This document shows positions 1,966 through 63,770 of a DNA stretch of 64,000 bases, piece by piece. Origin of the DNA: Odontocerum albicorne (Eukaryota; Arthropoda; Insecta; Trichoptera; Odontoceridae); assembly GCA_949825065.1 (NCBI GenBank), contig OX463844.1, forward strand, positions 30,220,033 through 30,284,032. The letters are read 5' to 3'. The notes under the pieces were generated by a model. It ran no database searches and was not told the origin of the DNA. It was given only the letters and a program-made list of their open reading frames with translations. Position 1 is the stretch's first letter; every line of letters begins with the position of its first letter. The position numbers and the translations under genes are program-made.

Positions 1966-3279
1966 TTCAAATGAATGAAAAAATAAAATATTATTGATAC
2001 TTTATTGTAAACAATACAAATAAGGAGTTTATTGCTATATAACAAAATCTTCCAGCCAACCAGATAATGTTACTCATACACGTGTAAGTTGCTGAATGAA
2101 AGGTTACAACGTTATTTCCAAAAAAAAAGAAATATCTTAATGTACGTTACTAATACTTAAAACATTAATAAACAAATGAAAAAAAAACAGTGAAATCAGA
2201 ATGAAGATGGGAGGGTTAAAAAATGAGAGTGGTGGAAAAACAAATTTCTTCATTAAAAACGTGTGTAATATTTTATAAGTCGCTGTTTGAAGTAAGTTTA
2301 CAAGGGTGGGAGTCTTTCAGTATGAACAGTAAACTTACTCAATCAAAAATATCAACATACATGACAATTTTTTTTTATATAAGTAAATTAGTTTCTGAAA
2401 GTTGCATTATTTAAAATACATATTACTAAAAAAAGAATAGTTGAATTCGTAGGTTTAACAATGAGCTAATATATATTTTATATATTTTAAACGGAAATGC
2501 AGTCACTTAGTACAGATACGGGTAAAGACAAAGCTCGATGACAATTGCTAAAGCTCGATGTCAATTGTAGACCTATTGAAAAAATATACTTATACATATA
2601 CGAGTATAGTAAGAAAATTAAACATTTGGCCAAAATAAATCCCGACTAACAAGCGTTTCCTTTTTGTTTCATCCCTTCATTGCTAATATTGTCCAGATGT
2701 TTCAGACCATCGAAGCCTGAGGGGCTAGGGTCCACTTTCTGGGGGGGAAGTGTTATTTCATGTAGGAAAAATTATATAAACTGTCAACCATAAAAAGGCC
2801 GGACAATGGAGGAAAACAGGACGCTGATCGAATAGCTCCATAATACCGGATTACAATAAGGGACAATGGCATTTTTGAAATATGTAATATAAAAAAAACG
2901 ATTTTCGGTGGGGTCTGAGAGCACGTAAGATATAAATTTAATATAAAAATAGGACAATGAGTGATATATGATGCTTTTTAAAGATTTATTCACAACAAGA
3001 TCGAGGGTCTGCTATATATTAATGCGACAGTATAATTTTAAAATGTTTTATGAAACTTAAGGTTTAGTATTTTTAATATTTAGAAGCACTTTTAACATAT
3101 ATAAATATAAAGATGGATGATATTTGGGTGGTCATTGAAAAAAAAATTTAAAATCTATTTATTGGTATTATATGTTCTCAGACAGAGAAAAGGGGTAAGA
3201 AATATTAAATCGTGAGTAGCAATACGAAAAAAAAGAAATATAACGAAACCAAAATATGTAAAGATCTAAAAAAAAAATG
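1966..3279. other. AT-rich sequence with one small direct repeat
   Basis: A 22-bp motif, AAAGCTCGATGACAATTG, is repeated in tandem with one change at about 2530-2570. A TACGAGTA octamer is at 2599-2606. At 2045-2070 the sequence resembles, in reverse complement, the CTGGTTGGCTGGA tail motif of the second SINE-like family. No coding region recognised. Confidence 0.45.
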
Positions 3280-3720
3280 GTTCACAATAGTGTATTAGTG
3301 CCAACATTGATATATGGAAGGGAAACGTGGAGATGGGAGATAAATTAAAGGAGCCTAGTGAATGCAATTGAAATGCGTGCACTGAGAAAAATATAGGGGG
3401 TCTAGATGTATAACAGAATAAGAAACGAAATTATCAAGGATGAATATGAACTGATAACTGATGTGTTAGGTAGGGGGAAAAGGAGTACGTTGAGGTAGTT
3501 TCGATATGTTGAACAAATGACTGACAAAAGACTGATTAAACAAATTTACAATGCAACTGTGAGTGAGAGTCGTGGTATAGGACGACCGAGAAAAGTATGG
3601 TTGGAACAAATAAATTAAATCAAGGTAAAAGGGAAGATGAAGAGCAAGAGAAACAGAACGAATTGTATGAGAAAATGCATAGATATGGAGGAGGCGGTGA
3701 AAGTATTTGTATATTGTTTA
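3280..3720 (+). pseudogene. LINE-A non-LTR retrotransposon, 3' fragment
   Basis: Plus-strand reading gives MVHNSVLVPTLIYGRETW, then an IRNEIIKDEYELITDVL block, a degraded RW-GHVERM-like block and GRPRKVWLEQIN. This is the order seen in the post-RT domain of the other LINE-A copies. In-frame stops are present, so it is a dead 5'-truncated copy. Confidence 0.7.
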
Positions 3721-5169
3721 CATTTTTAAATGTTTCAGTATGTTTTGGATTCTTATTTAATTTGAAGTTGCTTTTATTTATCATGGCATAAAGGTCATGT
3801 CATCGATTGTATTAAAAACGCTTTATAAAATACTTTTATTAACATATTTTAGAAGTTGGAAAAAAAAACAAAACAATCAGTTAAGTATTTTCACTGAATT
3901 AAATTAAATATTACAAATTACGTTGGAAATATGGGATAATTACAACTGAATTTAAAAAAAACATGCAAAACGGATAAAGAATTCCTGAATATTGTATATA
4001 CATATTGTTAATCAGCATTAGAATAAACCTTTTCCAATTTCTTTTCCACTCCTTGATGTACATCATAAAATAACTTTAAAATTTTACATAAAAACCTTTT
4101 TCGCCAGAATAATACTGAAATGATTTTCAAACTACGAGTAAAAGGAAATAAAAAATTATAACCCGAATATCATTCAAAGCATGTTTCCTCAGATACAATA
4201 AAATGAAATATGTGAATGATACGCGTACGTTATATGGTTTCCCTACGTTTTTAGTTCGCTACCTCTGGTCAGAGTATATTAGCATGTTTTATATTTTGTT
4301 TCCATCGGATCCACAGTTTGGTACCCCTCCGTTGAGTCTCTTCCTTGCAATATCTCTGTAAGAATATCGTTCCCTGAACGATTGTTTAGCTACCACCCCT
4401 TTCCCCGTCAAACATCCTAGTGAGAAAATGGCGGCTTTTTTATACACATTTTACAAAATGGGACTATTGCCATATTGGAAAAACCATCATCATTTTTTCC
4501 CAACTGGTTCCCTATCCGCCCATCAAAGATGCTTTGTTAATAGGGTAACCATTTTACAACATGCTGTAAAGTACTTAACTTTTATAACAGAAACAATCTT
4601 CTTTTCGTGCTTGACTAACATGTAATATTTTATAGAAAATATTCTGTTTCCATGATTAAATTGTCACTCTCCAAAGTATATTACCATTGTTAAATTTTAT
4701 ACACTCATTTTATACTTTTGGCATCCTAAAAGAAGCTACGAATATATTTAATAAATTTGGTATTAAGTTAGTCGCCTAACGAAAAATTATGAAAGCCTAG
4801 TTAATGATCATCTTCCGATAAATACTCGTACGTTAGAGCGTAGTTGTAGAACAAAAAGTAATGACAGGAATTGGGTTCCGACCCCGCGTTCATGTATCAT
4901 TTCGGAGGAGGATCTTACAGCTTTTTGCACTTGTGATTTTGTGATATCACACCTTCAAATTTCAAAAAAATATCTAACCAGGTAGCCCTTTAACAGACAA
5001 GTCTTCACATTAACACATGAGTGAATGACTGATGCGGACGTTGTGTAACGAGGAATTGGTGGGCATGACATAGATATCTTTGTTCAAATTATGATATGAA
5101 TGGAGTTGCGAATGTGACAACAAAGAATCCAAAAGTATGTGGAAGAATTTAATTGCATAGTTTGGATAT
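3721..5169. other. AT-rich sequence, no gene recognised
   Basis: Only octamer footprints (4133-4140, 4823-4830) stand out. The open frame at 4428-4625 has no motif I recognise and is not proposed as a gene. Confidence 0.45.
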
Positions 5170-5420
5170 TTTAGTATTTAGGAAAAATATATGAAATTCT
5201 TGATTAAGAAATGAAATCACTTCGTCACTGGCCTTGCCTAATAAAGTTGTTATACTCGTATATATTCACAGAATGGTGAGGTTATGTTTTACCAAGTACT
5301 TGTAATATTCAATTCACATTTCCATTTAAACAATTTTAAATTATAAATGGTGTACTGTTAATATTTAAAAATACGTAAACAAAAAAAAATTAATAATGAT
5401 TTTGACATGAGGAAGAAAAT
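5170..5420. repeat. Interspersed repeat X, copy 1
   Basis: This segment (GAAATCACTTCGTCACTGGCC, then AATAAAGT and ATTCACAGAATGG) matches 23955-24080, 32590-32870 and 61297-61610. It differs by an ACTCGT insertion at 5253-5260. Terminal structure and class are unknown. Confidence 0.6.
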
Positions 5421-7715
5421 TTCTTGTTTATGAAAAACAATAAATAATGTTCAATAGTGATTTGGTTCTTATGTGATAGTTAATAACAAAACTTTCTTTT
5501 GGAGCTTTTTTTATAAATAAAACGTTGTCAATAAAATATCTTAAAATATGATATCAGTTTTAAATATTCAAGTATTTTACTTTATCCATAAAATACAAAA
5601 TTAATTAGATGACGATATACTTCCATTGAAAATATATTCAAAACGAAGGCAAGTACATGTCATAAGAAATAAATTCCATTTTTTTTTTTGTAAATTAGAT
5701 ATCAATCAAGGAATTACGGGAATTGGTGGAGCATAATCATAGACACCTGGTTGTTATATTTTCCTACCTATCTCAAATAGCCGTACAACTAGGTCGAATT
5801 TTAGATGACAGGATTTTTTTCGCCAAACTATTTGTCTCCTTCCAGTTTTAATATCTGGTCATAGGATCTAAGTCTTTTGGATAAGACTTACGAGATCTAA
5901 TAACTTTCTTTCATGTTTTTCTTGCTTGCATAATGACCTAAGTTGACTGTTTTGATTGAAATCTTCTAGCATGATATATTCATTCCCACTCTATTGCACT
6001 GATGTTATCGCAAACCTATTTATCATATCGCTGGTTAAAATAAGTTATTCCCTCTTTTGAATTTCTTCGTTACGAGTACATCTCAGTTTATACGATCCTT
6101 CTATCTGTTTTGTGTCTCAATTAATATTCTGAAAAGCATTTAGTTTGTAATAAAATGCACAGTAAAGGCAGAATATATGATAATGCTTATCACATTGTTA
6201 TAAAAGGAGGTCATAATGTTTTGATATCTGTTTGTTGTTTTTTTATTTACTGATATTATTAATATTGAAAACTTGTGAACTAACAACTCTTGGTGGAATT
6301 CCATAATTTAGAAAAAGGAAACGAAAAAATGTTTGATATTATCCCACTTAGTTTACTCCATGTACCGATTTTGCTTATCAAGTATTCATAGAAAGATTCA
6401 TTATTCTGTGAATACTCGTTGAGTGAAATCAATTCTATAAACTTTTTGTGCCATTTTGTATGAAAAACAATAAATCATATAGCGCTGTTTAGTAACAAAT
6501 TATTGAATGATGGATTCAAATAAAGTATATGATGAGGAGTTTATTGGTCATGATTTTGACGTAGTTGTTAAGATTATGATACGGTTGAAATTGAGTTTTA
6601 AGTGTGTGTAAAAATGTGAATGAAGAGTGTGAATGTTTTAGTATGTTATTTAGGACGAATATGTAAATTTGTGATTCTATATAATATATCCCCAAAATTT
6701 ATGGATTTTACATTGTTATATATTTGTTCTACACTGCTCCCTTCTTTATATATTTTTAAACATTTGAAATGATATATTATGAGCCATAAAAATATTAAAA
6801 AATAATATTTTAAGAGTGCCAATAAAGTCGGATGACTAACAGGTGGGAATAAAAACCAATCCAAATTATTGTGAGGAAAAAATAAAAATAAATTAATATA
6901 TCTCAAATATTTTCAAGGACCAGAAATTTTGCTCACACCACAAAGCATGCGAGTATACTCGTCACAAGTTACCAGACCAAGATCGTGGATGATCTGCGTC
7001 AAACGAGAAATATTATAACAAAGGTGGATCAGGTGTAGCGGGTGAATTGTTAAATAATCTTTATTGAAAACCTCCCCCTATACTATTGTCATTATAAAAA
7101 TGTGCACAAAAAATATTATTTTTATATAAAGCTCTACTGGTAATCAAGTATCATAGGATATAAGAGATCAATACAAACAAAAAATATATAAACATATTAC
7201 TTTCTCTTACTCCCAATCATTACCAAGTTAGTTATTATGGAAAAAGTAAGTTAAACATCACCTAAATAATTTGTACGTTATACGGTCAATTATAAAACCT
7301 CGCCCTAACTTCTCTGGCGTATATTCCAATTAGTACGTAATATAAGTAATATAACGATTATCGTATTTATTATGTATACAAGTACTGACAAAATACCTCA
7401 CCGCAATCCTCACTTAATTTTAAGCTTGCCAATAATCAAAATAGTTATTAATTTAAAAATGAAACCACAGTTTTCTGTCACAGTACTTCGTTATAAGCAA
7501 ATTGAATATTTAATTTTCAATATTTTCCAACTTTGTAACGATTGGGAACTGATATCAAATTTATATAAATTTGTTTAATTTTTTTCTATCACCATCTTAA
7601 ATATGTCTTGCCAAGTACCTGTTATTATAAACTATCAAGCATGGAATTAGACGTTATTTATTACATATTTTGTTATCTTTACATTTATAGACGCTAAATT
7701 CACATACTATCTATA
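5421..7715. other. AT-rich sequence, no gene recognised
   Basis: No coding similarity or repeat structure found. One octamer lies at 6071-6078. A short GCGCTGTTTAG motif at about 6482 also occurs near 14300 and 34285 and may be a fragment of a dispersed repeat. Confidence 0.4.
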
Positions 7716-7934: not shown

Positions 7935-9799
7935 GTTTTAGTATATTTAAAAAATAATATATACACATATAATTATATGAGTGTGTACTCGTAGTATTTT
8001 TAATGTATATTTACGTTAGTAATAGGAGTATGTTTAAAATTTTAATTTAAGTAACTTATATGAGTGTGTAGTATTTTAATTTGCATAATTAATACTAATA
8101 TGTCATATTTTTAATATTAAATGTTATTCTCGTAAACAATACGAGTTGTTTAATCTGAAATTTATGAAAAAAACATTGAATTTTTCTTATTTGATTTAAA
8201 AGAGATCCATTTACTGTTTTTTAAACGTTTTCTTGTGTAGTAATAAACATGTACTATATTTAAAATTAGATACAAATATCATCGTGCTTAGTTCAACTTA
8301 GTTTTGGGGGAAATTTAGTTATAAGAACTTACTTATCGAAGCCTCCATTATCGAGAATATATTACCATCTAGCACCATTTATAAAATTTTAAATATTTGT
8401 ACCATATATGAAGGGTTATAATAAATCAAATTAAAATAGAGTACTACAATATTCGTGTGAAAAATGAGCAAGCTAATATTGTTAATGTCACATAGAGAGA
8501 AAAAATTATATTTAAAAAAATTGGTTGTTTAAATTTATGGAAAGTTTAATAAATGGTTTCCTGATAGCTGAGATTTTCTAGTTTGCGCTTTACACAACGA
8601 TATAACATAAAGCATAAAAAAACAAATAAATATGTACAGAAATGACAAAACATCATGTACTTAAAGTTCATGAAAAACCATTGAGAGTTTTAAGTGTACA
8701 AATAGATGATTTTCGTATTTCTCACTATCGGCAAATAGCTTTTGCGTTTAATTTGACACGCGATAGAGACGCAGGATTAAGAATATCACAACGCACTCTC
8801 AGCGACGATAGTATGTTTCCCAAAATCTGATTATAACTTCAATATAGGTCACTCGCACCTGACTCGCTATAAAGGGAATTCAATTTCATTGATGTTAACA
8901 TTTTTCTTCAGCGAAAAAATATAATTTTTTTTCTCTTCAAAGACAGGATTCGTTACATTTTTCACTCGGCGCCAGATGGTGTAAAAAATATTATATATCC
9001 TACCCCTAAATGATTCCTCCCGTCGCCGAGGAACAAAATGATTGATAACCTTTTTCCAAAGGACCATTTTAACTTTTGCCGAGTTTGTTCCCGACTAAAC
9101 ATACTATATCATGCCAAATTTGTCTCTTAATGTCGGTGCTACTTGTACATAGGCCCATCTTGTGTAATACCATAGAAGTGAGGTAATTAAAATTGCTTTA
9201 CCTGGATTTGCAGAAGAAATTTTTCTTACGTCTATAAATGAGGCATAAAAGATTCGTCATAAAACGATAGTAAAATGACGGTCGAGAGTCCCATGAATCT
9301 ACATTAAGATGTATTTAGTGTTCCTAAAATCGAATTGGCAGTTTAGAGCAATTTTCGACAAACTTTCATTTACTTGAAGACAAAACTCGGTAACAGCTAA
9401 TGATTACAATGTACTATTTATTTAAGTCATTCGTTTTCTGAGGAAACAATCCAGATATTAGAACATTTATTCTACCTCATATAGTTTCAAAGCTAAAAGC
9501 GGTGGTCCTGTGTATATCTTGGACCCTCCAAGTGCTCGTATACATAGATTAGTCGTTGAAAACATGTTTTTATGTCAACATTGGCATAGCGGTCACTCCT
9601 TAAAGATTAGTGTGTGCATCAAAAAAATATTGCGCATGTGCTAACTCTGTTAACCTGTTAACTCCAGATTTTCCTTGACAGGCTTCCTCCGGTTTGATTG
9701 ACAGTAAGATCTGAATGTTTTTTTTTCATTTTCTTTGCATTGTTTTTTATCGTATCTACTTAGGGTTCTGATTATTGTGAAAAAGGTTTCCTCCCCAGA
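7935..9799. other. Sequence without recognised gene
   Basis: Two short open frames (8642-8830 plus; 8867-9067 minus, rich in Arg/Lys) have no motif I recognise. A segment AGTTTGCGCTTTACACAACGA at about 8579 recurs near 43318, suggesting a small dispersed repeat. Confidence 0.4.
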
Positions 9800-14289: not shown

Positions 14290-15345
14290 AATTTATATAG
14301 CGCCGTTTAGAGAGGAAACTCTCTTCAAATACCCTCTAGCTTGGGACTCGAACCCACTATTATTGAAAGATTAAAAATATTATAAATTAAATATATATAA
14401 AATAATAGGAAGGTTGGGGCTGCGGCCATTAAATAAGGCACTTCCTCGCATTTGGATATGGTCCGAAAAATATATTTGGTAAGCAAATCGCAGAAAACTT
14501 ACTAAGGGAGGACGAACTACAAAGAAACTTTAGTAGATCTACCGATGTGTGATAGTAACACATTTCGCTTTAAATGCATGTATTTAGTGTTCATATACCA
14601 TCATAAATTTGAATAAGACCTCCCCAAAAGCGATTGTCTTCAAGTATTTTCTAAAGCTGCACACGTCACTCATATCTCTAACACGAATATACAGACAATT
14701 CCACGCAACAGAATCAATAATGGCAAAAGCTCTTTCATAAAATCGAAATCGATAGGCAAAAGCTCTATCATAGTCCGATCAATTTATTGAATAAAGAAGA
14801 AATCGATAGTCAAGTTCTACTCTCTGACACAGATTCAAAATACTCGTACACAATGGAGAGATCTCATTAAGGGATTTGCATACAAAGATATAAAGTTTGA
14901 AATCAATCCATTCGCAACCCTTGAGCTAGTGTAAACATTTTAGAGACGGAATAATATTACAATATTTAGGACTGCCATATATCAGCCTTGCAACTGCTTT
15001 TTAAACAAATTAGAGTCTTTGAATTTGCTAACCAGGCAAACCACAATAAAGAAAAAAGCAATAATCCAAACGCGACACAACAAATGAACAAATGAGTATT
15101 TTTATTTCCCTCATTGAAAGACATCAAAACGAGAACCCAAAGAATATATATAAACTACTCGTAATTTTCTATCGAAGAAAAGCTAACGATTACGAAAGAA
15201 CCCAAGAAGATTGACGCTATCTTTTGGAAAATTACTAGCACCGATAACTTATAAAGCATAGATTTAGTTTAATTTTTTTAAGCATCAAATTTGATATTTG
15301 GAGAATGTAATTAGAAGTATCATATTTCAGAATAAGTTTATTTTT
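14290..15345 (-). pseudogene. LINE-C 3' fragment (copy 2), interrupted by repeat Z
   Basis: Landmarks of the 12.2-kb copy recur in the same order: GCGCCGTTTAG (14300), AATAAGACCTCC, CTTCAAGT..CTAAAGCTGCACACG, TCACTCATAT, AAAGCTCTTTCATAA, CATTAAGGGATTTG, ACAAAGATATAAAG and TTTGAAATCAATCCATTCGCAAC. The coding sense is minus. About 240 bp absent from copy 1 (about 14352-14590) is inserted. No RT core remains. The two copies lie 1 kb apart in the same orientation. Confidence 0.7.
14345..14590. repeat. Interspersed repeat Z, copy 1
   Basis: This contains ACTCGAACCCACTATTATTG, GGCTGCGGCCATTAAATAAGG and CCTCGCATTTGGATATG. The same landmarks occur at 63860-64000. In reverse complement it carries a B-box-like GTGGGTTCGAGTCCCA, so a tRNA-derived SINE is possible but unproven. 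Confidence 0.5.
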
Positions 15346-15454: not shown

Positions 15455-15715
15455 ATATGTATAACCTTTTCCCCAGTATTAAATAGAACATATACGAGTA
15501 GAGTCAGAGTTTGGTGTGTGTAACCTAATCCCCAGCAAACCGATAGAGCAGACAAAGTAAGAGGTTGATGTGTGTAACGTTTTCCCCAGTATTAAATAGA
15601 ACATATAGAGTCAGAGTTTGGTGTGTGTAACCTTATCCACAGCAAACCGATAGAGCAGACAAAGTAAGAGGTTGGTGTGTGTAACGTTTTCCCCAGCATT
15701 CCGATAGAGAATGTA
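15455..15715. repeat. Tandem repeat, higher-order unit about 106-114 bp
   Basis: TTTTCCCCAG occurs at 15467, 15581 and 15687, alternating with a related TAATCCCCAG/TTATCCACAG half-unit followed by CAAACCGATAGAGCAGAC. This gives a dimeric unit of two ~57-bp monomers. Copy 1 has an extra 6 bp (TACGAGTA at 15493-15500) absent from copy 2. Confidence 0.85.
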
Positions 15716-18746: not shown

Positions 18747-21189
18747 TATTTCAAAATAGGGAGGAGCTCCATGCAGCTATACTATACGTCGGACTACCTT
18801 CGGCCCGATTGGCTACTTTACACCTTGTGACGACCAGGGATAATTTTACAGCTTTCTCAAATATTCGTAAAAACATATAGACTCTCTCAATATTTAAGTT
18901 CTTCTGCAGTATAAATAAATAATATTTTTTATTTTTCCATTCATCATCTCTATCCGTGGTATCTGACCTTCAGTTAGTACTACCGCTATCCGTTTCACAT
19001 TTAGGTGGGCGCCAACAGATGAGCCCTCCCGCCAGAGACTCTCATCATAGTATAGTATACCTGTAACCATAACCAATATAACTCTTACCAATTTCCTTAC
19101 GAGTGTACGATCGCACTGTAAGGGAACCTTATTCTTAATCTATATGTATAAGGGTGTGGGCTGAAAAACATCCTCGCGGCTGGGCTTACCCTATATTGGT
19201 GGGGTGTATCTCGGCCGGGGGGATGTTATGAGATGAGCCCAGATCTTTTGATAGCTTCTCTCTTATATTTATCTTGAGAAATATATGCGATTTTGGAATG
19301 CATTTATATTATATTAGAGTATATACATACTATGTTGCTATCAATAAACATATACTCGTATTTATCTATTTATTCGTTCCTAGAGGCAGTGTGAGTGAAG
19401 GAGAGACAAAATGTCCTTGATGAAAAGTGTTAAGGTCCCCTGATGTTGCGTTAAAAAATCGGGGCTCATATTCGTGCCTCATAACGCTAAAATAGATATA
19501 TGTAGACTTATAATATTGTACACAATTACACGTCTTACTAAGCCTTTGTAACGTCCAATGAATGGCTCGTTTCTTATTTCTACAATGAGCTTAAACACTG
19601 AAAGATATTTTTAATTTAATCATTTGAAACCTTAAGTCGTCTGAAAATTTATTTTTTAAGATAAACTAATTTATAGTTACATTTTTAGCTCTAACAGTGA
19701 TGTCTCAAATCATCTAGTGTGGACAGATTGCCTATACAATATTAGTATTAAAAAAATATGTGTGGTTTGTTTCTACGCTAATCTCACGCAACAAAAAAAT
19801 TGTCAACATCATCTGTAGATGGCACCATTTAAATAATTTAATGCAATAATAAGAACATTATAATTGTGCAATGTTTTTATTTATTTTTGCATTTATGACA
19901 AAATATTCCATTTGCATAAAACAAACAATATGATACATATCAAATATAAAAAAAATCTCCAAGATGACGATTGTAGTACAATGCATCTCGCAGAGTAGAT
20001 TTTAATGCAATTAACATCGTTTTTAATTAACAGTTTTTTAGACGCATTTTTTCATATTGACTTATTATTCAGATTAAAGAATTTAATTAATTAAAAAATA
20101 AAAAGAAATAAACACAATCACTAGAAGTTTCTTTGAAAGTCGCTATCATCAAGATATTTACAATAAACGAGGGCATAATGTTACGACTACTAGTAGTATT
20201 TACTAGTAGTACGTAGTATTTAAAAATAAAATTCGGGTGGCTTATTATATATGTAAGGACGAGCGCGGCGCACCCGAGGTCTCCAAGCTGATCATTGCTT
20301 TATTTTCATAAACCCCAAGTGCAGTGACCTCCCCTATGCTTTCATCCCATCTAAATCCTAGTTTCACTAATTTATACCACTACTTTATGGTCACATTCGG
20401 GAGAATGAAAGGTTAAGCGAGACAATACTGACAGAAAATCTGAATATGCAGTACTGGTAAACAGCTCCCACAATCCCGTTTCAGGCGACCCAGCAACCAT
20501 GGAAAGAACACTCCATCATTGCTTGTAACAGTGAAGGAATTCCATCGTCTCCAGCGGCGGACTGACAATTGAAACGGAAAACCGGCTCATCACAATTACG
20601 AGTACTTATTTTACTCAAGAGATCTTTTTCGCAACACATCATCATGGACGATTAAAAAACCAGTAAGTTAAGGAATTTTGTTATCGGTTCATGAAATATT
20701 TTAACTTGAAAAAGGCCTTTCGTAGGATACGTGTATTGATGTATAAGTGATAATATGTTAAATATTTATGGGCTACAAAACGTACTTCTAGGCTGAGAAA
20801 TGCAAGTTAGACATCAACAGAACATAAAAGCAACATGACACGCAGTTATTACATAATTATAGTACATTTTACTAGCAATCGTAGCTACTCGCAATGTTTG
20901 AATGATTTTCCTCAAGTGTAAAACTCAGTAAATTAACGTGTTTCATTTCCATTTTCTCCTTTCCTCTCCACCATCCCTTCCTTTTATTTTGAATCCTCTT
21001 AACAGTTAACAAATTTGGTTTCATTATTTTTTTTTGTTTTCAGTGTCTACACTGGCCCCTTTTTCTACACTACCTGCTTTTTAAGCACCTGCTTCGGTAA
21101 AATCTTTGAAATTTTCCCCACAAAGGATTATAAAACTATAAATCAACTTGATTGAATAGGGTACTGACCCTATATTATTTTCCTAGTTA
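18747..21189. other. Region without recognised gene
   Basis: A GC-richer patch at 19140-19250 (CATCCTCGCGGCTGGGC, GTATCTCGGCCGGGGGG) and another at 20255-20285 stand out from the AT-rich background but match nothing I recognise. Octamers are at 19353-19360 and 20597-20604. Small ACTAGTAGTA repeats lie at about 20188-20215. Confidence 0.4.
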
Positions 21190-21600
21190 TTTCCACTGGT
21201 GTAAGCGGTAGGTTTTGTTATATGAAACGTTTTGGAAACCTGTGATCGCCCATCCGTATCATATGCCCGGTCCATCTTATTTTCAACTGTACAACTAAAT
21301 GTTCTTTATGTTTAAAGTTAAAGCATTGCAGCACCAAGACAAATGTGACACGATCACTCCGGTGGATTTGAAGAATGCGGCGAAAGAAATGCTGATGGAA
21401 TATTTCTGATCTCAGACCCATAGATAAGTGTAGGAACAGCAATGGTTTTGAAGACATACTCGTATATATTAGTAGATCTGTGCTGTAGAATACTCTGTAA
21501 TTTAGTTTTGCAACTACTGTTGGCGGGCTCCTTAGGCGACTCTTCAGTTCATCATCAAGAGAAGAATTCGATGCTAAGATGCTGCCCAAAATTTGTGAAG
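21190..21600 (-). pseudogene. LINE-D non-LTR retrotransposon C-terminal fragment
   Basis: The minus-strand frame carries a PLLFLHLSMG-like remnant of the P-LLYGSE block, then FHQHFFRRILQIHRSDRVT and KIRWTGHMIRMGDHRFPKR. This series (H-H-LR-IL-I-W-DR-TN, then LRWTGHxIRMxDxRxPK) is the C-terminal region of a distinct insect LINE family, different from LINE-A. The frame is partly open for 123 codons but has no RT core, so it is a truncated copy. An octamer interrupts it at 21457-21464. Confidence 0.75.
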
Positions 21601-28440: not shown

Positions 28441-28442
28441 TA

Positions 28443-29086: not shown

Positions 29087-29289
29087 TACAGCATTCCGCC
29101 TCACGAGAATGTTTGAGTAACAATGTTATGGCAGACTATATGTTTATATAAGGCACTTTAGAAGAGCAGAAAACTAAAATTCAAATCAAAGGTCTGAAAA
29201 TTAAACCAAAATTGGATAAACCAGATATAGAACTCGGGTTGCTAGATCTTTTAACCAGCACTCGAACTATTAGATAACATACCACATCA

Positions 29290-43067: not shown

Positions 43068-44141
43068 TTATATTAATTTACTAAGTTTAAGATACGATCA
43101 TGGATATCGATAATAATTTTGAAACCAAAGCTGGTTGGTGGAAGAACTAGCATTAAAGCAATTAATTCGCCTGATATATTTACATAAAAGTATTAAAATA
43201 AAGTAAAAATATATGTTGTTAAAGGTCGTTAACATCTCCCAAAAAAAAAATTGTTTTTCAATACTTTGATGACAGTTATCAAATTTTACCTAATTTTTTA
43301 AACCGTAGGCTATCATAGTTTGCGCTTCGCACAACGATAAAAGCGTTTAGTATTTATGAATGAGTATCTTGAGGATTTGTTAAAAATTTCATTTTACTGT
43401 TTGTTGAGGGAATATCAAAATACTAAAAAATTTCAAATCCAATAGAAATCCAATCAAAGAAAAAAAAACATATCATAAATAAATTGTCATTTCCAAATTT
43501 AATCTGAACATATTACAAAATCTCATCTATTGCCATTAGTTAATGATCTTCAATACTGTTTTACAATCACATTGAAATCTATGATTTGAAACACTTATTA
43601 ATTTCAAAATTGAACATATTATCCTTAACCTTGAAGGAAATGACAGAGAGAAAACTTATCAAGGTATTGTTAGTTACCACAACAGTACGAATCGCGCCTC
43701 GCTCATTCGCACGCGATTTTTTCAAGTGCTTATTAATAGATTATCTTTCACATGCTTACACTGCAGTACAACAGTTGTGAACTATAGCGGTGGGTTATAT
43801 CATTTAGTGGTTCAAACAGGGAATACCACTGCGGGCCGTACTAACATTGGTTATAATACATTTTATTACACTTCTAAGAATAATTGATGCGCACCTTACT
43901 CGTATTAACGAAATATACGCAATTCAAATTCTTTAAAACCAACTCGCACATACATAAACAGAACCGCTAAAAATCATGTGGCCTGCAAACATAATACACT
44001 CCGTAATAATAACAACATACTGTATACACATTCCAAGCAAATGGTATGACTCTCAATACACAAAATTGATAAACACAACAAAAGACTGATATAGTTTAGT
44101 ATAAGTTTTGGCACAAGACGTATCTCTAAATTTTTAAAGTA
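43068..44141. other. No gene recognised
   Basis: AGTTTGCGCTTCGCACAACGA at 43318 matches the fragment near 8579. ACTGCGGGCCGTACTAAC at 43829 and CATGTGGCCTGCAAAC at 43976 resemble hAT-end words near 62240. Octamer at 43897-43904. Confidence 0.4.
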
Positions 44142-45384
44142 CGAGGTTTGATAAAAAATAACGAGAATTTACATTTTTATCAAAAAGTATTAATTTAATC
44201 ATAAAAAATAATATTGTCCCATTCAAAGTAGTTCCTATAGGATAAAATACACTTTTGTCAATGTTTTTTTTCCGATATGTAAACCATTTGTGGAATGTAC
44301 TTTTTGGGATAGCCTTAAGCTCACCCAGTGATTTAGCCCTTATCTCCTTTCAATGTTGCCCTTTCAATGTTATCTTCACCTTCGGGAACAGGAAAATGTC
44401 GCAGGGGGCCATATCTGGCGAATACGGTGGCTGTGGCATCACGACGGTGTTTGCGTATTAGAAATTCAGGAGTTGTTTGCCCACAATTTATATTTTTCTT
44501 CGGATTGCCTCACGCAAATGGCGTAAAACCTCAACGTAATACGAGTACAATACTCTTTATATACTCTATGGTCTAGCGGTTAGAACTAATAGTGGATTAT
44601 GCCGTTCTAATCGAAGAAAACTATAAGAGGAACCTAGACATTTGATCAAACTTAGCGTGCTTTTTTCGGTCTTAGCTCTTCAGGAAGCTTCCATTAGGAC
44701 GATTGAGCCCTTGTTTCAATGTCATGTTATACACCCTTGTTTCGTCACCTGTTTTGACGTGTTGAAGTAATCTGAGTCGTCAACGACTTCAGCCAACATT
44801 TGCTCAGCGATGTTTTGACGATGCTACTTTTGTTGAAAATTCAACAATTTTGGAACAAATTTGACTGCCACTCGTTTAATGCCGAAAACGTTAATAAAAG
44901 TTGATTCAAATAACTCGTATGAGATACTAACTTCCTCAGCATCCTCCCTTATGATGATTTGGTGATTACTAAGCGCAATATTCTTACTTTTTCCACATTT
45001 TCATCGGTGGTTGATGCGCCTGGACGCCCAACCCTCTTGTCATCTTTGACGTCTTCACAGCCCTCTTGAGAATGTTTTTAAGATTCATAAACCCTTGGTT
45101 TTAACATATCATTCTCGTCAAAAGCTTTTTCTAATATTTATATCACTTCACTGCACTTTATTCAACTTTTAATCCAATTTTTTGGTCCAGTCATTTTTAA
45201 AATGATAAAAATCACGAAGTGTTGTAAATACTTGCCTGTCAAACACAAACTACACATTCAATATGGCTGAAAAATGAAACATCCAACACAAATAGTGTCG
45301 TTAACGTGGAGAAAAAAGATGGGCTCAATCAAAAACAAACCACCGACGAAATTTTAATTTCTCCGTTTTTTTTATCAACCCTCG
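44142..45384 (-). mobile_element. CGAG-terminated mariner-like element, full length but degenerate
   Basis: TA at 44140-44141 and 45385-45386 flank ends CGAGGTTTGATAAAAAATAA and, in reverse complement, CGAGGGTTGATAAAAAAAAC. The length of 1243 bp is that of a complete mariner. The transposase reads on the minus strand: DVKDDKRVGRPGASTTDENV, VKFVPKLLNF, TGDETRVYNM (first Asp), LIVFFD-NGIIHY, YYVEVLRHLREAIRRK, then PPYSPDMAPCDIFLF (third Asp) and ELKAIPKSTFHKWF. The HHDNAPAH block with the second catalytic Asp is deleted, and there are many stops and frameshifts. Confidence 0.9.
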
Positions 45385-45474
45385 TATAGTTAAAATCTCA
45401 CAAACAAGTCTCTTTCTAGTATAGTATATAGAAACTACTCAAGAAAACATGATGTGAAATTATATTCAGAGTTT

Positions 45475-48199: not shown

Positions 48200-48470
48200 A
48201 GAAAATAATCTAGATATGATTTGGACACATGGAGAGAATGAATTGCGGAAAGTTTTATACAAATGTTTGTATCTGACATTAATGACAAACGAGAAAGGAA
48301 TAGAATAAGAAGATAGTTTCAGAGCTCTTAACGATGAGTATTATGAGAAATAGAAGAGTATGTATGACTAACTATATGTACACAAGGCAGGGTGTGCGTG
48401 AACAGAAAAGGGTAGAAATACGAGTATGTCATCTGTGCCTAACCCAAAAGGAACTTAGCACATGTAATTA
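48200..48470 (+). pseudogene. Possible LINE-A tail fragment
   Basis: GHMERMNCGKFYTNVCI, RNRIRR and RNRRVCMTNYMY follow each other in shifting frames, like the GHVERMN...RNRRSCM sequence of LINE-A. No RT core. Confidence 0.45.
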
Positions 48471-49710: not shown

Positions 49711-50385
49711 TTTATGTGCTTAAAAAACTGATTATTTTATTTTCAAATAATAAATAATACCTTATAACAGTAGTCTTAAATTTGCGGATCACACAAGACT
49801 CATTTTAATCTAAAATTATTCGTAATTTGAAAACAGCACAAGAGGTTGCCTAAAATATAGATTTGAGAGCAGATTTTTTCCCGTTTTTGACCCATCCTTA
49901 ATTTGAGTTCGATTCAAATACCTTTATGGAAATCGAGGTAAATAATATGGAAAGCAATGATTATATAAACTATGCAAAACAGCGGGCTTATAAGGCTTAT
50001 TTTAAAATAATAAATATTGACGCGTTTAAAATGAGTGCGGATTTAATTTAACTATTTTAATACTACATTCATTATTCATGATATACTAATTCGCTAAACC
50101 TTATTCAATTAACGCAGAATAGATCAGTTTGACACTGAACAGTTATCTCGAATTTGAAAAAAAAAATTAAATACAAATAAATACAAATCTTCTTGAGTCC
50201 GTCCCTGGGGTAAAAACTGGATTAATTTTTTTTAGTACACCTGATATGTTTTATCCGATTGTCATATACTCGTATTATATTGTTTTTAAATATAGGTCAT
50301 CATGAAAATCTCTTTTTTCTTTTTATATGCCTGTATATTGAACTCATTTTTTATATACACAAGTTTTCACACTTTTTTCATTGTA
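49711..50385. other. No feature recognised
   Basis: AT-rich; octamer at 50267-50274. Confidence 0.4.
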
Positions 50386-52261: not shown

Positions 52262-53785
52262 CTGGGGTAAAAATTAAAATATGCAGGTGTATTTTCCTCT
52301 TGTTTCTGGATTGATTTATACGAAATGTTAGTTGAAGCTTTCTATAGATCACGTATTGAAAAGCAACAAATTCAAAGAATACTTTACCAGGTTAAGTTAA
52401 TTATACAATAGTATATTATGTTAATTACTATGATTCTGGATGGACGTCAACGAACGAAAATATCTACCATATGAGAAAGGCTTAGTTTAAAAATAGCACC
52501 ATTAATTTTAGCAAAAAATATTCGATATACCTACCCTCTAAAAATACGTCACATTACCAGCTTTTATATGCGTTCTTCATGGAAATTATTACTTTTCTCG
52601 ACAATTTACTTTAAATACTTGGCAATCATCGCTGTACGTTGCGTTTATCTAACTAAATATTTATTTTCTTACGGTTTTATTAAAGTTTTTAGAAATAAAT
52701 ATCGGATTTTTTGTATTGTATTAAACGCAGAAATGAATATTTATTCAATATTATAATTGAACGGATTTTCAAAAATAAAACTGGGTCCACAATTTATCAG
52801 AAAACGAAGCAAATTCCCTAGAGATGATAAATTTAAGCATTTCATTTTTATTCCCCTATTAAATTTTTTTTAAATCAAAGATGATGGCCTTCGTGAAAAA
52901 GATGACATTCGCGGTCCATTTGTTAAGATAAGTAAGTAAGGAGACAGGTGTCTTCCAATCCGAGAACGAGGGGTCTATTGTCGCCGATAATCGATTTAAA
53001 ATATATATTCAATGTGGTTTTCACCTAAGACCTCTTTAACATCAGTATAATTGATTGGAAAAGATGTATTAGTTGAAATAGTTATATAGTGTACAATTAA
53101 AGTGTTATTTAATACAAGAATAAAGGTGATCCATCTAGTGAATGATAAAATTTGGTTGCAATCTTGATCAGGAATATCCTATAAAATAAAGATCTATAAA
53201 GTGATCAATAAAGTGACAACCTCAGAGAAAATAATGTCGAAATGCAAGATGGAAAATCCAATACATTAAAAACGTGTCTCATAATTCCACAAGCGTGCTT
53301 GAAAAATGCGCTTAAATTGACATATAACAATTTTTAAATTATATTTTTAAGAATATTATTTTTTCGGATAAGTTTGATTTAGTCTTACATCGAGCTCAGT
53401 ATGACTTTTGAGGGGACAGCAATCATTTTTGTGAGGTTTTTTTAATTATATGCCCATAACATACGAGTACTGTGCATGCACGACTGACTACAGTAATTAC
53501 TTCATATTTGATATTTTTTGTCTTATAAATATTTTAATAGGTGATGTACTCGTAAAACATGAAAATTTACACCAAGTACAGTATAAAATTACTTTGTTTG
53601 TTTTTTTTTTCAATTTGAAGCATATTTTTATTGTATTTCATGTACTTGACTTTTTGTGGATCGTTTGATGGAATTGGTCGTTTTTAGCGAGCGTGTTAAT
53701 GACAAGATTTGAGTGATTTAAAAACAACCGTGAAAACGTTTAGCCTGTAAAACAATGTAATTTCCAACTACCAACAGTATGGTGT
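52262..53785. other. No gene recognised
   Basis: AT-rich, two octamers at 53462-53469 and 53547-53554. Open frames have no recognisable domain. Confidence 0.4.
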
Positions 53786-54240: not shown

Positions 54241-55108
54241 ATATTGACTCCAGGTAAGCTCTTAAGTTTACACTAAAATATTTCATGTCTGAGTAACATA
54301 GCTATGTACTCGAACGTTGTATATTTTCCCCCGTTGTGCAAATGTATAACCTTTTTTAAATAGCTCAGACTACGAGTGCAATCTTGGTGAGTATGCGTTT
54401 TACTTATGTTACATGTTTCAAAACTTTAGTATCTACCGTCGAAAGTGTTCATCCTATAACCTAGACGTACTATATATTTATGTGGTACGTCATCAACGAG
54501 TCTGCCTTATAACTATACGAATAAACTAATTGGCATAAAAATATATTAAGTTTTCACGTCCATAAAAAGACGATATTCATTTCCTTAGTACTCGTATATC
54601 GTGCCATACTTAAGAAATCAGTTTCTGTGGCTACCTTAATTGATTAATTTAATGCGTAAAATATTTATTGAAAGAATTTTTTCAAATAATGTTGACAAGA
54701 ATCTATAATTTTTACTTTTGGTTAAAAAAACCACAGTGATCATTTTATTCGTATCGCCGACTCCGTTTACTCATTAGTAGTGTAAATAAAACTGTACAAT
54801 TAAAAATATTTAATGTGAATGCTTCCAGCTCGACTCTGTAAAGAGTATATTCGAAGAAATGCGTCGTCAGTAAGTGTCGGGGATGCCAATACATACTCTT
54901 CTCAGAAGCATTAGCACGGGTGCAGTGAATTGACGATACATACGTAACTTCAGTCTGTGTTATGCGATCTCACACCTTGCATTATCGGTAGTAAAGTGTC
55001 AAAAGTGTCTTATCAATCTTCATCGGGAGTACGTCAAGTTCTGTTTCACAATAAAGTATTATTATAATTTAATATATCCTTAATGGATTTTAAGTGAAAT
55101 TTTCAAAA
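54241..55108 (+). promoter_or_regulatory. Upstream region and probable 5' UTR of the UGT gene
   Basis: A TCAGT arthropod initiator-type word occurs at 54950-54954 (TTCAGTCTGT) and another at 54867-54871, without a TATA box at the proper distance. TCAGTAAGT at 54867-54875 could also be a donor site for an upstream UTR exon. The last 150 bases before the start are less AT-rich than the flank, as expected of a 5' UTR. The transcription start is not established. Confidence 0.3.
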
Positions 55109-56537: not shown

Positions 56538-56727
56538 GGAGAAGTGTATGGCCAACAAATGAATGGTTGAAGTAAAATAGGCACTACGAGTAAGTGCCAA
56601 AAAAAAACAAGTATGCAGTTTCATTCTATGTGACATATAGAACGAAACTGCATCCTTAGTTTTTTTTGTTTTTTTTTTGGTACTTAGTGCCTATTTTACT
56701 TCAACCATTCAAATGTTCTCCGCCATA
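56538..56727. repeat. Foldback element / long hairpin
   Basis: GAATGGTTGAAGTAAAATAG (56561-56580) pairs with CTATTTTACTTCAACCATTC (56691-56710). Pairing continues through GGCACTA, a poly-A/poly-T stretch and GCAGTTTC(A/G)TTCT to a 9-nt self-complementary loop ATGTGACAT. Outer words CGGAGAA and TTCTCCG also pair if about 14 nt in the left flank are looped out. The stem is roughly 65-75 bp with few mismatches. The left arm has an extra CGAGTA (56587-56592). No coding capacity; probably a MITE. Confidence 0.92.
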
Positions 56728-57414
56728 AAAATACTTACAAGAGATAGGCGACTGCTTGGTAGGATATGGCCTTATGCATGTGTGTATAATTATTCCCAAA
56801 TCTCCACAAAAAATGTAAGTTTAGTTGAAGGATCTCAAAAAATATTGTAAGTTTAATAGAAGCATCTCAATAAATATTGTAAATAGTTGAAAGATCACAA
56901 TAAAACACATGTACCACTTAAGAAACAAACGTGTATTGGCACATTAATGCTTTAATATATTAAATATAGTATCACTATCGCAGGGATATACGAGTATATT
57001 ACGAGAAACTCATATCAAAATTAACGTATCATGGGGTTGCTGCCAAAAATGTACAAATTCAAATTATAGAAAATTGGAGTGTGAATATGTGTAAATAGTG
57101 TTTTACAACAATCTTCAATCGGTTTAATTTTGCAATACCTCCTGAAATCGATACAAAACTACTGGAGATATTTTTGTAGAAATCTCTCAAGTTCAATTTT
57201 TTAACGTTAACAAAAAATAACAATTTGAAATCAAATTGATGAGCTCTGACATCAAATTGAAATAAACATGTTTATAATGCAAACACCATTCGAATTATCT
57301 CACAGTTTCCCTGTCGGCGTAATTAGAGAACAGAACGCCAGACCTTCCCCCGCGAGACAGTTTTAAGAACATTCGTCATTTTGTTGCACTAATAAATTAC
57401 TTGTACCAATAAAT

Positions 57415-57835
57415 GCTGTAGAAACGCGTGAATTGAAAAGAATACATGGAGTGGCAATGTATGACAGAATACGGAATTAATGGATACGGGATGAATGGAT
57501 ACGGGATGAATGGATATGAGATGAATGTGAACTTAACGCTAATGTATTAAGTAAAACGAAGAAGTGTACATTGAGAGGGTTTAGGCATGTGGAACGAATG
57601 AATGAAGAAATGCTAACAAAACAGATATAGACAATAGTGCAAATGTGAGAAAAAACAAAGAAAAGTATGGTTGGATCAAGTGAATGATATTTTGAAAGAG
57701 GAAAACGTAAAAAGTCAGAGAAATCGTAGAAGTAACACGATAAGGTACTCGTATATGAAAGTAGAAGAGGCTAAGGATGTGTCGAGATAGGAAAGTATGG
57801 CACTCTATCCTCACTATCTACCCCGACAGAGAATT
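57415..57835 (+). pseudogene. LINE-A 3' fragment
   Basis: ELKRIHGVAMYDRIRN, then DECELNANVLSKTKKCTLRGF, HVERMNEEMLTKQI and a lysine-rich tail with NDILKEE. A 15-bp unit, GGATACGGGATGAAT, is expanded about three times at 57480-57525 inside the coding block. Dead copy, same sense as the UGT. Confidence 0.75.
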
Positions 57836-58406: not shown

Positions 58407-59731
58407 CAGGGTGGGACATGATTGTTACTGTAAAAATACATTTAAATGTTTACAAAAATATATTTATGTAACTTTGAATTTTTTTGGTGAATTCAGTCAT
58501 TTGCATATTTTTTACATGTGTCTTTTTTTAAATAATTCGGTTTAAATTTTCCACGCACTCGTATTAACACAATGCCTTCCTCAAACGAAAACATTATTCA
58601 TTAAAGCTGTTAATATACGAGTAGCTTGGAGTATAACTTCAATAACGGCCCCGATTGATGTTTTCAGCTCATTCTTGTAGCGCAGCTTGGTTTTATACTC
58701 ATGTTTGCAATAACCCCATTAATATAAATCCAGAGCAATGAGATCTGGAAATATTTGAGGCTCTCGATTCGCACTGTTCTGTGAGGTTCTCTTCTCGCAA
58801 AATTTCTAACGCAAAAGGTCTTGGTATGTGTCAAGTGACTTTCATCTTGTTGAAACTATACAATTTTTAATGCAATCCATCGCCGGCGCTATACTGCGAA
58901 AAAAATCGCCAGCAAGTATAAATAATGCTCGTCGTTTACTATTATGGTAGCACCATTTCGTTAAAAAATATGTACCAATAATAATACAGTTTACCGATAT
59001 CGCATATGACACAGCGATTTGCTCTGGATGTAATTTTTGTTCCAGCAATTTTTGAAGTTTTCCATAGCTCAAATATGGCACTTTTATTTGTTAATATTGC
59101 CATTAAGGTCGAAATGGGCCTCATCCGACATAAACCACCAATCAATAAAGTTTTGACTTTTTTCGTTAATTGTAACAATTTTTGACGAAATTCTGGGCAA
59201 ATAGGCAGGTCTTGTGGATTTAGACTGTGTGGCAATTGAATCTTTCAAGATAATAAATTCAAGTATTGTGCAATAACATATATGGGACACACTAACGACA
59301 ACGTCCAATGCAAATTGCCCGGTTCAAATCGTTGGTTCATTTGAATGGCAACTGTGGCGATTTTATTCGTTGTCCGAGCGGTCCAGTCTCATTCTTAAGG
59401 CTTCCTTTGCACATTTCCTGTCTCGCTAAACTACTGCAAAAGCCGCATTATAATCCATGTGCTCGGAATACCTCGTCACATTATAATTCATCTACCCCAT
59501 CTTCCTTCATTTCTTAATGAAAGTTGTACAGAAATTGGGGAATTGGATTCAAAATACAGTTGAATCACTCTTATTCGTGCTACGTTTAAATATCTCTCCA
59601 TTATTCCAAATTTTATGTATTTTTAAAAAGTGAATTATTCACAAAACAAAAATTAAAAAAATAGAAAAGCTATTTAAATTTTATTTTTGTAGCAATTTAA
59701 ATTTATTTTTTAAGATTCAAACCCTACCCTA
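58407..59731 (-). mobile_element. rosa-type (DD41D-like) mariner, near full length, dead
   Basis: The minus strand reads, high to low: KDSIATQSKSTRPAYLPR, WWFMSDEAHFDLNGNINK (first catalytic Asp, about 59125), NCWNKNYIQSKSLCHMRY, FQQDESHLTHTKTF (second, about 58848), then PDLIALDLY-WGY (third, about 58735). Probable ends are CAGGGTGGGACATGATT at 58407 and, in reverse complement, TAGGGTAGGGTTTGAAT with TA at 59732-59733. The left TA is lost. At about 1.33 kb it has the size of a complete mariner. Stops and frameshifts are frequent. The transposase is certain; the ends are less so. Confidence 0.7.
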
Positions 59732-60135: not shown

Positions 60136-60814
60136 TTGATAATATTTTTTTTGTGCTAGTTAGTGGATTTTCCAAAGAGTGTTCACTGACAAAGTGTTGG
60201 CTAACGTAATCATTTCATGAAGTTACAACTATCAAATTATATAAAATAAAATAAAGATGTCCTGAAACATGTTTTGAATATACCATTCCTTGGCATCCGC
60301 CATACGAATGGTGAAAATTATATATCTTGATCTCTATTTTATTTATAATACACAGTGACTGTTCCTGATGCAAATTATTCAATAAAGAAATTCATTCATT
60401 CGTACGGTACTCCTCAGCATATATACTCGTATATAGTTGTAACACAGACATGTTGAAAAGCGTGACCGTAGTCCATTAATCGCACGATATTTGCGATTTG
60501 TCGTCTTACTTGTCAGCAATGCTACCAGTCATGGAAAAGAGACACTAACCTTATCGATGAAATAAATCAAACTAAACTTTTGAAAGGGTGAAAGACAAAC
60601 GTCTTACCAACTAAGAGATGTAGGTCATAAATAAAATAACTCTAGTGTCATTGGACCCAATAATCGAGCCTCTGGTCTTAGAATACTGGAGTATGCACGG
60701 AACTCGCGGTTCGTCATTGCACGTGTTGATAACACTACCATCCGCAAAGAGACAACAACATTCGAACACGTAATCGGTGCATGCAAGTACTGTTACCTAA
60801 CAAACTCTTTTGAC

Positions 60815-61000: not shown

Positions 61001-61296
61001 TGATGATATGTACGAGTACATATCGGTATGTAAAATCCATAAAACTTCATATAAATATTTTGCTTTCTACAACTGTATGAATATTTTACTTTTTACAACT
61101 GTACGAGTATATCCTTATTCTTGCACATCTTTTAGGAAAATAATCTTGCTACCAGGACCTTGTGTTTCATCTATAGTGTGCTTGATAAGGTACAACACCT
61201 TGTACGCAATCAAATAACTGCCCACGTGAGTCGTCCGTCTACAGTATAATTTGATATAATCGATAGGATTATAGAAAATACAAGACAAATTTTATG

Positions 61297-61610: not shown

Positions 61611-62225
61611 ATGTTCTTAAATGTTGTATGGTGGATGGTAAAAAATACCTGTTTTGAATGAAAATGAATTAAACTTCAAGCTGAAATCTTAAAATTTCGT
61701 TTTTTTTCAGGAAATTCATGAATCAAATTTCTTTAAAATTATTTCCAGCCATAAAATGTCTAAATTCGTTATCGAACTAAAAACCACGCCATACATCATT
61801 TTTCCCTTAAACGACTACTATTATTTACTAATGAACGTAAAGTAAAAAATAATTTCCTATATAAATATATGCAACGAACATAACTCTCATCACCAAACAG
61901 AATTAAAATTGGCCAACATAAAAAAATACAACAAAGATTAATTTTATGTAAGCAATCAATTTATCAATTAAATATACCCTTGTTTGAAAGCTCATCTTTG
62001 TCTGTTTGAGACAAATAACTCGTACAATTGGTTAGGAATGTGAAAAGAAAATTACTCGTAAAACCGAGATATTCTAAAGCGGGAATTAGTAAAGCGATAA
62101 CTGTATCTTCGTTGGGTAAAGAAAATAGCGTTTTGGTTAGGAATCTCATTTACTATTATTTTTTTAGGAAATGTGGTTGGTAAGATCACAATCGACATAC
62201 TGTGTAATTTAAGTTTGATCTAAAT

Positions 62226-62310: not shown

Positions 62311-62547
62311 TTACTTTTGAAAATAAATATGTATTATGTTTAGATAAATTGTATAAAACATGTCCTACAAGATTTTTTTTCTCACAAATGTTATGTAAAA
62401 TTAGAAATCAAATTCATTTTGCTCTTAATTAACTACACATCAGTATAAATTGAAACATAATCAGAAAACTAAAACAAAACTAAGCGATCGAAAAATGGAA
62501 AGTACTGTGTTTTTTCTTTGTTTTAATTATTTTTAAATTTTGCTTAG

Positions 62548-62770
62548 GAAATTGAAAAATACATGAACGAGTCCGAACATGGTGTCATAATATTCAGTAT
62601 GGGATCAATGTTGAGGACATCGACAATAGCCCCAGAGAAAAGGGATGCTTTTGTCGACGCCTTCTCAAAACTTAAGCAAAATGTCATCTGGAAATGGGAA
62701 GGAGAGCCCATACCTGGACTCTCTAAGAACGTCTTGGTCCTCAGGTGGCTTCCTCAATTGGAGCTTTTAC
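62548..62770 (+). CDS. UDP-glycosyltransferase, exon 2 (start of UDP-sugar-binding half)
   Basis: This encodes residues 278-351 of the same protein, plus the first base of codon 352 (phase 1 donor TTAC/GTAAGT). EIEKYMNESEHGVIIFSMGS is the conserved link into the C-terminal Rossmann-like domain. KQNVIWKWEGE and LSKNVLVLRWLPQLELL follow; WLPQ opens the UGT signature, where Trp and Gln contact the uracil of UDP-sugar. The acceptor site is TTTTGCTTAG. The rest, about 170 residues with the HGGLLSTQEA-type sugar-binding part, the membrane anchor and the short cytoplasmic tail, must lie beyond 64000. The exon is open and conserved, so the gene looks functional as far as it can be seen. Confidence 0.95.
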
Positions 62771-63602
62771 GTAAGTAAAAATATTTCCACTTTTCATAAT
62801 TACATTAAACGTCAGAACTTTTTATTTTACGATTTATTTTTAAGACTGTTATGGCTCTATTCAGGTTACCTCGGCTCGCTTTTTCCTTAAACTATAATTT
62901 AATTTCATGTTTACTTAAAACATTAGCACTAAAGTCTCGGATAATACTGCTCGAGTAATTTTAAAATTTGGCGTTATCTTGGGAAATTCGTACGTTATTG
63001 TTATAAAATTTACACGAGAAATTTCTCTACTTTACTACTTGTTTTATGAAAAATAAATGACTGTCAAATTTGCGGCGTAATATTCTTTTATAAAATTTAA
63101 TTTGACTCTATATATAAGATTTGTACATGTTGTTTAGCATAATAATACTAATGAAAATAACTTGTAAAGCACCTTTTAGAGAGCAGACTTTCCTCACTAT
63201 TAAAATGAGTGAACACGCCCAAATTGCAATAACATACATTTTAAGAGTATATCATAATTTTTATTTCATAATAAAAAATGATCGTAAAATAATATTATTC
63301 GAAATAAATTAACCAAAATTGCTAAGCATATTATTCTGTTAAAAACCATGTCACGTTCCTCGACGAAATTCCACTAAAATATGGATATGAGATTTTTTAC
63401 TATCTGTTTTACGAGTGGAATAATTTGAATTTACAATTTCGCTTTTTGACTCCACTGGGAGTCATTTTTGAAAAATAAACTTCTTAATTTATGCGCCTCA
63501 GCAAATTTTGCATTACGGCTTTTTTGGTACGAGATTAAAACATAAACGTTTCCATCATTTTTATCTTCAAACCGTCCATACGTAAAGTTGTTTTATAATT
63601 AA

Positions 63603-63770
63603 CAAGGTCATGACTGTTGTCCTGTCGACATACTCGAATCTACATACGAGTATATATGATATACCACTACCTCCTATCCTTACACTCAAGGTCATGACTG
63701 TTGTCCTGTCGACATACTCGAATCTACATACGAGTATATATGATATACCACTACCTCCTATCCTTACACT
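63603..63770. repeat. 84-bp direct tandem duplication
   Basis: CAAGGTCATGACTGTTGTCC starts at 63603 and 63687, and the two units look identical. Each contains one TACGAGTA octamer (63645-63652, 63729-63736). The period is a multiple of three, giving repetitive but meaningless open frames on both strands. Confidence 0.95.

Follow-up and report, generated by a model that had tools for sequence, protein, structure and literature searches.

The window, a 64,000-nucleotide stretch of the caddisfly Odontocerum albicorne (assembly GCA_949825065.1, contig OX463844.1, positions 30,220,033 to 30,284,032 of the forward strand), carries 36 copies of one eight-base word, which reads TACGAGTA on one strand and TACTCGTA on the other. 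This octamer is a 6-bp insertion that turns TA into TACGAGTA, and its copies are very probably footprints left by the excision of a cut-and-paste transposon (Tc1/mariner superfamily) with terminal inverted repeats that start with CGAG. A preliminary description, made from the letters of the window, had already proposed such footprints and had pictured the jumping as local to this stretch; the excess is in fact genome-wide.

Abundance and sharpness of the octamer

All 36 positions named in the preliminary description carry the octamer (18 as TACGAGTA and 18 as TACTCGTA), and an exact count finds no others in the window. The two or three copies that had been thought likely by chance agree with the both-strand expectation, which is 2.2 under an order-2 Markov model and 3.1 under order 3. 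The observed/expected ratio is 16 under order 2, whereas a frequency close to that expectation had been held to speak against excision. Tandem duplication accounts for two pairs (40227/40378 and 63645/63729), so that 34 octamers are left once these are collapsed, and apart from these pairs the flanks are mutually unrelated; the sites thus lie in unrelated contexts rather than being confined to one repeat family, the other outcome that had been thought damaging. They are scattered along the window with a mean gap of 1.85 kb (coefficient of variation 0.92), and a uniform placement is not rejected (p = 0.16). When the TA-NNNN-TA words of the window are ranked, as had been suggested, the strong over-representation is upheld but the octamer is only second by raw count, the A-rich TAAAAATA being first with 55 copies.

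The octamer is a sharp word, because its one-base variants stay near background. In the window, the majority of the 24 words one mismatch away occur about as often as expected, and over 204 kb, after masking of four arrays, these neighbours total 155 against 136-140 expected, compared with 74 against 5 for the octamer itself. About ten near-matches had been read as decayed footprints; with TACGAGTG at 6 against 1.4 expected, TACGAGTT at 6 against 2.5 and TACGAATA at 9 against 4.7, they amount to a small excess at best. A decay model gives a ratio of one-mismatch to exact excess of 0.22-0.27 with an error of 0.18, a result consistent with build-up over roughly 6-8% neutral divergence and too loose for dating. 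In the window, words for scars of other lengths (TACGATA, TACGTA, TACATA, TACCATA and TACAGTA) occur at about the expected frequency, and no tRNA or Rfam matches were found in it.

The whole assembly (1,287,057,991 bases in 1241 contigs) yields 190,753 forward and 190,749 reverse matches, or 381,502 octamers, against 15,081 + 15,070 = 30,151 matches for a control word that is the octamer read backwards, an excess of about 351,000. The genome mean is 296 per Mb, and the window, with 563 per Mb, has about double that density. Nineteen regions of 10 kb picked by position only hold 55 octamers against 4.8 expected, with 0 to 8 per region and a variance/mean ratio of 1.5, and because the excess is replicated across these regions it is dispersed and not owed to a few arrays. 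This random set is partly dependent, L019:565 and L023:606 being copies of one young repeat (L-numbers denote sampled genomic stretches). One word, TAGGTATA, outscores the octamer in the same regions (78 vs 8.1), yet 60 of its copies belong to one array in L011.

Dense short tandem arrays with the octamer in nearly every unit were observed near the start of contig C1, in L026, L027, L028 and L029, which lie within its first 75 kb; some array units in L029 have two octamers. Growth of tandem arrays driven by the scars is unsupported, as only 4 of 72 octamer sites fall in arrays and arrays make up 7.9% of the 204 kb examined. The window itself has an octamer-free 71-bp tandem array of eight copies at 25459-26029, whose adjacent copies are 98% matching.

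A six-base insertion at TA

The octamer is regarded as a 6-bp insertion because octamer-free relatives of the surrounding DNA usually show two bases in place of eight. In a spacer test covering 257 kb of DNA, in which the distance between the octamer's two flanks was taken in an octamer-free relative, the spacer is exactly 2 bases at 8 of 9 dispersed loci and 7 at the other. Other TA-NNNN-TA words, used as controls, have 2 bases at 15 of 1173 sites and 8 bases at 762 of 1173. TA fills the spacer in 4 of the 8 cases; in the other four, which involve diverged relatives, it is TG, TG, CT and CA. This test, along with an edge unit in L028, bears out the earlier proposal of insertion at TA. The nine loci are drawn from 49 scored octamer sites, 40 of which were kept out of the count: 34 array sites (12 in L026, 17 in L027 and 5 in L028), and L019:565, L023:606, 40227, 40378, 63645 and 63729, where the paralog carries the octamer too. 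In an alignment-based version with a smaller sample the commonest length difference is +6, found at 7 of 11 loci and at 8 of 1087 controls; the remaining four loci are at +7, +7, +8 and -1. The control sites of both tests were counted on both strands, and many thus occur twice.

Two clear pairs lie in the window. In a 107-bp tandem repeat at 15450-15700, ACATA-TACGAGTA-GAGTC (split here for reading) at 15493 is matched by TA only at 15606, and in the inverted repeat 56554-56717 the insert is present in a single arm (56585 vs 56685). Clear empty sites are also found for L022:3308 in L019 and L021 and for L019:9610 in L020, and in the L028 array of 67-bp units the octamer is present in five units, with a bare TA in the edge unit. 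Around 57746, diverged relatives resembling long interspersed nuclear elements (LINEs) differ in length, with 4 of 11 at +6 and CA in the best-scored one. Paralogous sites served here in place of the sister-species orthologues that had been suggested, and TA-only alleles are seen among them.

Target context was read after removal of the 6-bp insert. Against an expected 0.36, A at -3 or T at +3 occurs in 42 of 68 cases in the window (p 2e-5) and in 75 of 110 in the 19 random regions (p 1.2e-11). In the random regions these are the strongest positions; -1 (61/110, p 6e-5) and -2 (53/110, p 0.009) also fit A and T, and -4 and -5 show no departure. Other TA-NNNN-TA words, as a control, give 0.347 at -3/+3. 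The consensus around the reconstituted TA is ATATATAT, a palindromic AT preference, and because the control consists of all TA sites in the same DNA, AT background is ruled out as its cause. Passages of PMC7913693 give ATATATAT with a central TA for ZB, similar to SB (Sleeping Beauty) and Bari, and state footprints of 2-4 bp for Tc1/mariner elements. A Tc1-like preference is thereby supported, and octamer sites resemble transposase targets.

The octamers, their empty counterparts and the elements discussed below are located in the window as follows (coordinates, strand, feature; TACTCGTA on the forward strand is entered as -).

2599..2606, +, octamer TACGAGTA, probable footprint
4133..4140, +, octamer TACGAGTA
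4823..4830, -, octamer (TACTCGTA on +)
5253..5260, -, octamer; two paralogous copies with 2 bases instead (best: CT)
6071..6078, +, octamer
7986..7993, -, octamer
14841..14848, -, octamer; two paralogous copies with 2 bases instead (best: TG)
15156..15163, -, octamer; diverged paralog near 12.8 kb, no clear gap
15493..15500, +, octamer; TA only in tandem copy
15606..15607, +, empty site (TA), tandem-copy counterpart of 15493
19353..19360, -, octamer
20597..20604, +, octamer
21457..21464, -, octamer
27079..27086, +, octamer
28441..29088, -, decayed copy of CGAG-ended element
32488..32495, +, octamer
33578..33585, -, octamer
36910..36917, -, octamer
39621..39628, +, octamer; one diverged paralog, net +7, no clean empty site
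40227..40234, -, octamer; tandem-duplicate pair with 40378, both filled
40378..40385, -, octamer; tandem duplicate of 40227
43897..43904, -, octamer
44140..45386, - (coding pieces on -), decayed mariner-like element, TA duplication included
44540..44547, +, octamer, within element 44140-45386
48419..48426, +, octamer
50267..50274, -, octamer
53462..53469, +, octamer
53547..53554, -, octamer
54589..54596, -, octamer
56585..56592, +, octamer, one arm of inverted repeat 56554-56717
56685..56686, -, empty site (TA), other arm, counterpart of 56585
56989..56996, +, octamer
57746..57753, -, octamer; diverged LINE-like paralogs
58616..58623, +, octamer
60424..60431, -, octamer; one diverged paralog, net +8
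61011..61018, +, octamer
61102..61109, +, octamer
62053..62060, -, octamer
63645..63652, +, octamer; pair with 63729, 84-bp unit, identical
63729..63736, +, octamer; tandem duplicate of 63645

Excision, its possible donors and other explanations

An element of the proposed kind would enter at TA, preferably within ATATATAT, and duplicate the TA; its transposase would later cut it out with the four outermost bases staying behind, and end joining would close the break as TA-CGAG-TA or TA-CTCG-TA. We infer that the element formerly stood at every site and departed by cutting, and that a long-lasting, highly excising family would have made some 350,000 scars genome-wide, with few residents remaining.

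Several observations weigh against excision. So many scars are extreme for a transposon that has hardly any residents, and no intact or young CGAG-ended element was found in the roughly 240 kb scanned, nor did the DNA examined yield the donor transposase. Separate repair of the two central mismatches in annealed 4-base overhangs would lead one to expect enrichment of TACGCGTA and TACTAGTA, and in 190 kb these mixed-repair scars are not enriched (1 vs 1.1 and 1 vs 3.7). In the window, TACGAG without a following TA is over-represented (31 vs 18.5) whereas CGAGTA without a preceding TA is not (18 vs 18.7), an asymmetry that is unexplained. The octamers at 15156, 39621 and 60424, which lie in diverged repeats, show no clean gap. 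Finally, an unbiased scan of TA-X-TA insertions between relatives, with a small sample and strict criteria, did not pick out CGAG, which accounts for 2 of 9 six-base cases, equal with CACA and CAAA, while the five-base CAA has 5.

As for the number of scars, a neutral model indicates that fixing 350,000 of them over 10 million generations would take about 0.035 scar-forming excisions per gamete in each generation, a rate that would be feasible but demanding. A tentative and rather doubtful account is that the lineage persisted as a few copies excising faster than drift fixes them, so that its history is kept almost entirely in scars, with very few residents. In a bolder form of this account, the machinery may often place only the element's outer end at TA, and the 6-bp unit may itself spread.

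Two kinds of donor are left even, with the 6-bp scar favouring Minos and a resident element favouring a mariner. A Minos-like Tc1 element, now rare or lost, is a real possibility that falls somewhat short of probable, and the ends of Minos start with CGAG. A passage of PMC3386967 reports a 6-bp Minos scar, a length that matches CGAG plus TA, and four-base scars together with a preference for ATATATAT would suit Tc1-like elements as treated in parts of PMC7913693; the exact letters of the Minos scar were not found in the literature searched. CGAG ends are no proof of Minos, however, because the mariner-like element at 44140-45386 has them and so do mariners of the Hsmar2 kind, with TA-CGAGGGG ends in a passage of PMC3770610. 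Furthermore, a motif scan of six-frame translations of 234 kb found no Tc1-type catalytic motif, and the sole CGAG-ended resident found is mariner-like and has no match to Minos transposase (E 0.07 for a fragment, taken as a non-match).

That resident came from an end-pair scan of about 240 kb, which found one element with the TA-CGAG...CTCG-TA ends that had been recommended for a search, in decayed form; yardstick scans for six other end words turned up between 0 and 2 pairs apiece, including one perfect pair (CAGT ends, L023). At 44140-45386, it measures 1247 bp including the TA pair, has terminal repeats 17/20 identical and many stops, and its ends read TA-CGAGG(G/T)TTGATAAAAAA with a TA target duplication. 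A second decayed copy at 28441-29088 is internally deleted and 75-80% identical in pieces. Four coding fragments of the resident gave no Pfam match and one fragment gave no PDB match, but the mariner protein at 48706-49005 is matched at its catalytic motif by one fragment (11/16 residues, E 3e-7). One octamer (44540..44547) sits within the element.

A CGAGG-ended, Hsmar2-like mariner, of which 44140-45386 would be an old relative, could equally have been the donor, a suggestion that we entertain without considering it probable. The insert CGAG equals the ends of an element present in the genome, and TA duplications and a second copy accompany it; the resident is old, and hence need not be the donor, and both window copies are far more decayed than the octamers. 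The known mariner Mos1 leaves footprints of 3 bases, and TACGATA, the corresponding form here, shows no enrichment (24 vs 25.3 in 190 kb), which weighs against a mariner donor only if it was Mos1-like. According to passages of PMC3770610, the terminal inverted repeat of the human mariner Hsmar2 is printed as TA-CGAGGGGTCTTC... and its excision is non-canonical.

Other transposon pieces were noticed in the window. A mariner at 42131-43058 has near-perfect terminal repeats TCCAGAAAGTAAGTGTA (19/20) and is internally deleted, with long open transposase pieces that match Pfam HTH_48 and Transposase_1. A second, different mariner transposase fragment lies on the - strand at 48706-49005, with Transposase_1 just under the Pfam cut-off, and open pieces at 17164-18387 are like a pogo/Tigger-type transposase, with a weak HTH_Tnp_Tc5 match under the cut-off. 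The only clear host gene piece noticed is a UDP-glycosyltransferase exon at 55109-55963 (Pfam UDPGT), whose best named relative is in the caddisfly Arctopsyche grandis at 50% identity, two unnamed ones being at 59% and 56%.

Explanations other than germ-line excision fare much worse. It is very unlikely that the octamer is a functional motif, such as a protein-binding site, under selection: extreme sharpness and genome-wide density would suit one, but the octamer is an indel with TA in its place in relatives, its flanks resemble a transposase target, octamers are found within decayed transposons and tandem arrays, and a binding site would allow more one-base variants than are observed. Programmed or frequent somatic excision, in which the germ line keeps the elements and the assembly shows body cells, would account for both the sharp octamers and the missing residents, and yet we give it even less credence. 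Octamers have been copied within short tandem units (the 45-, 50- and 67-bp arrays of L026, L027 and L028) and in duplicate pairs, one of which, 40227/40378, is several percent diverged with the octamer in both copies. The scar itself is thus inherited, and excision confined to body cells is therefore disfavored. Chance, base composition or a single repeat family can practically be dismissed. A few copies are indeed tandem duplicates and many lie in the arrays near the start of C1, but the octamer is some 16-fold above Markov expectation, recurs in the 19 dispersed regions with otherwise unrelated flanks, and falls in arrays at only the few sites counted above.

Significance and comparison with known systems

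What is known of footprints comes from single excisions in laboratory crosses. New here is the scale of the scars together with the near-absence of residents; no description of a genome-wide octamer of this kind was found in the literature searched, and among the matches listed for its letters (titles and abstract openings) none was on such a motif. One scar type as the most over-represented octamer would provide a countable record of cut-and-paste history, which is normally erased, and the rate, target preference, repair outcome and age of excision would become measurable from sequence alone. A transposon could in this way shape a genome by hundreds of thousands of 6-bp insertions that are barely visible in repeat annotation. 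In addition, ranking TA-NNNN-TA words would offer a simple test for vanished transposons in other genomes.

The octamers exhibit similarities to several known systems, but there are also differences from each. Minos (Drosophila hydei, Tc1 family) likewise leaves its 6-bp scar at TA in Drosophila, as a passage of PMC3386967 has it. Its scars are known from laboratory remobilisation, whereas here a single wild-type genome has about 350,000 copies above control, and the part of it examined yielded no Minos-like element. Sleeping Beauty, Frog Prince and ZB share insertion at TA, the ATATATAT preference and a short scar (passages of PMC7913693, PMC3878927 and PMC2874221); in these passages, however, their scars are of at most 3 bases plus TA (C(A/T)GTA for Sleeping Beauty and Frog Prince), not CGAG plus TA. 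In Hsmar2-like mariners, the repeats begin with CGAGGG after TA, which is similar to the CGAGG ends of the window resident, but the footprints of the reconstructed element are non-canonical and genome-wide scars are not described in the passages concerned (PMC3770610). Excision sites of DNA transposons in rice are comparable in that scars were catalogued from genome sequence, and according to a passage of PMC4423477 only 8 of 94 excisions there were clean, most having deletions or filler. The octamer count is blind to those outcomes, and the clean form, in contrast to rice, is very frequent here.

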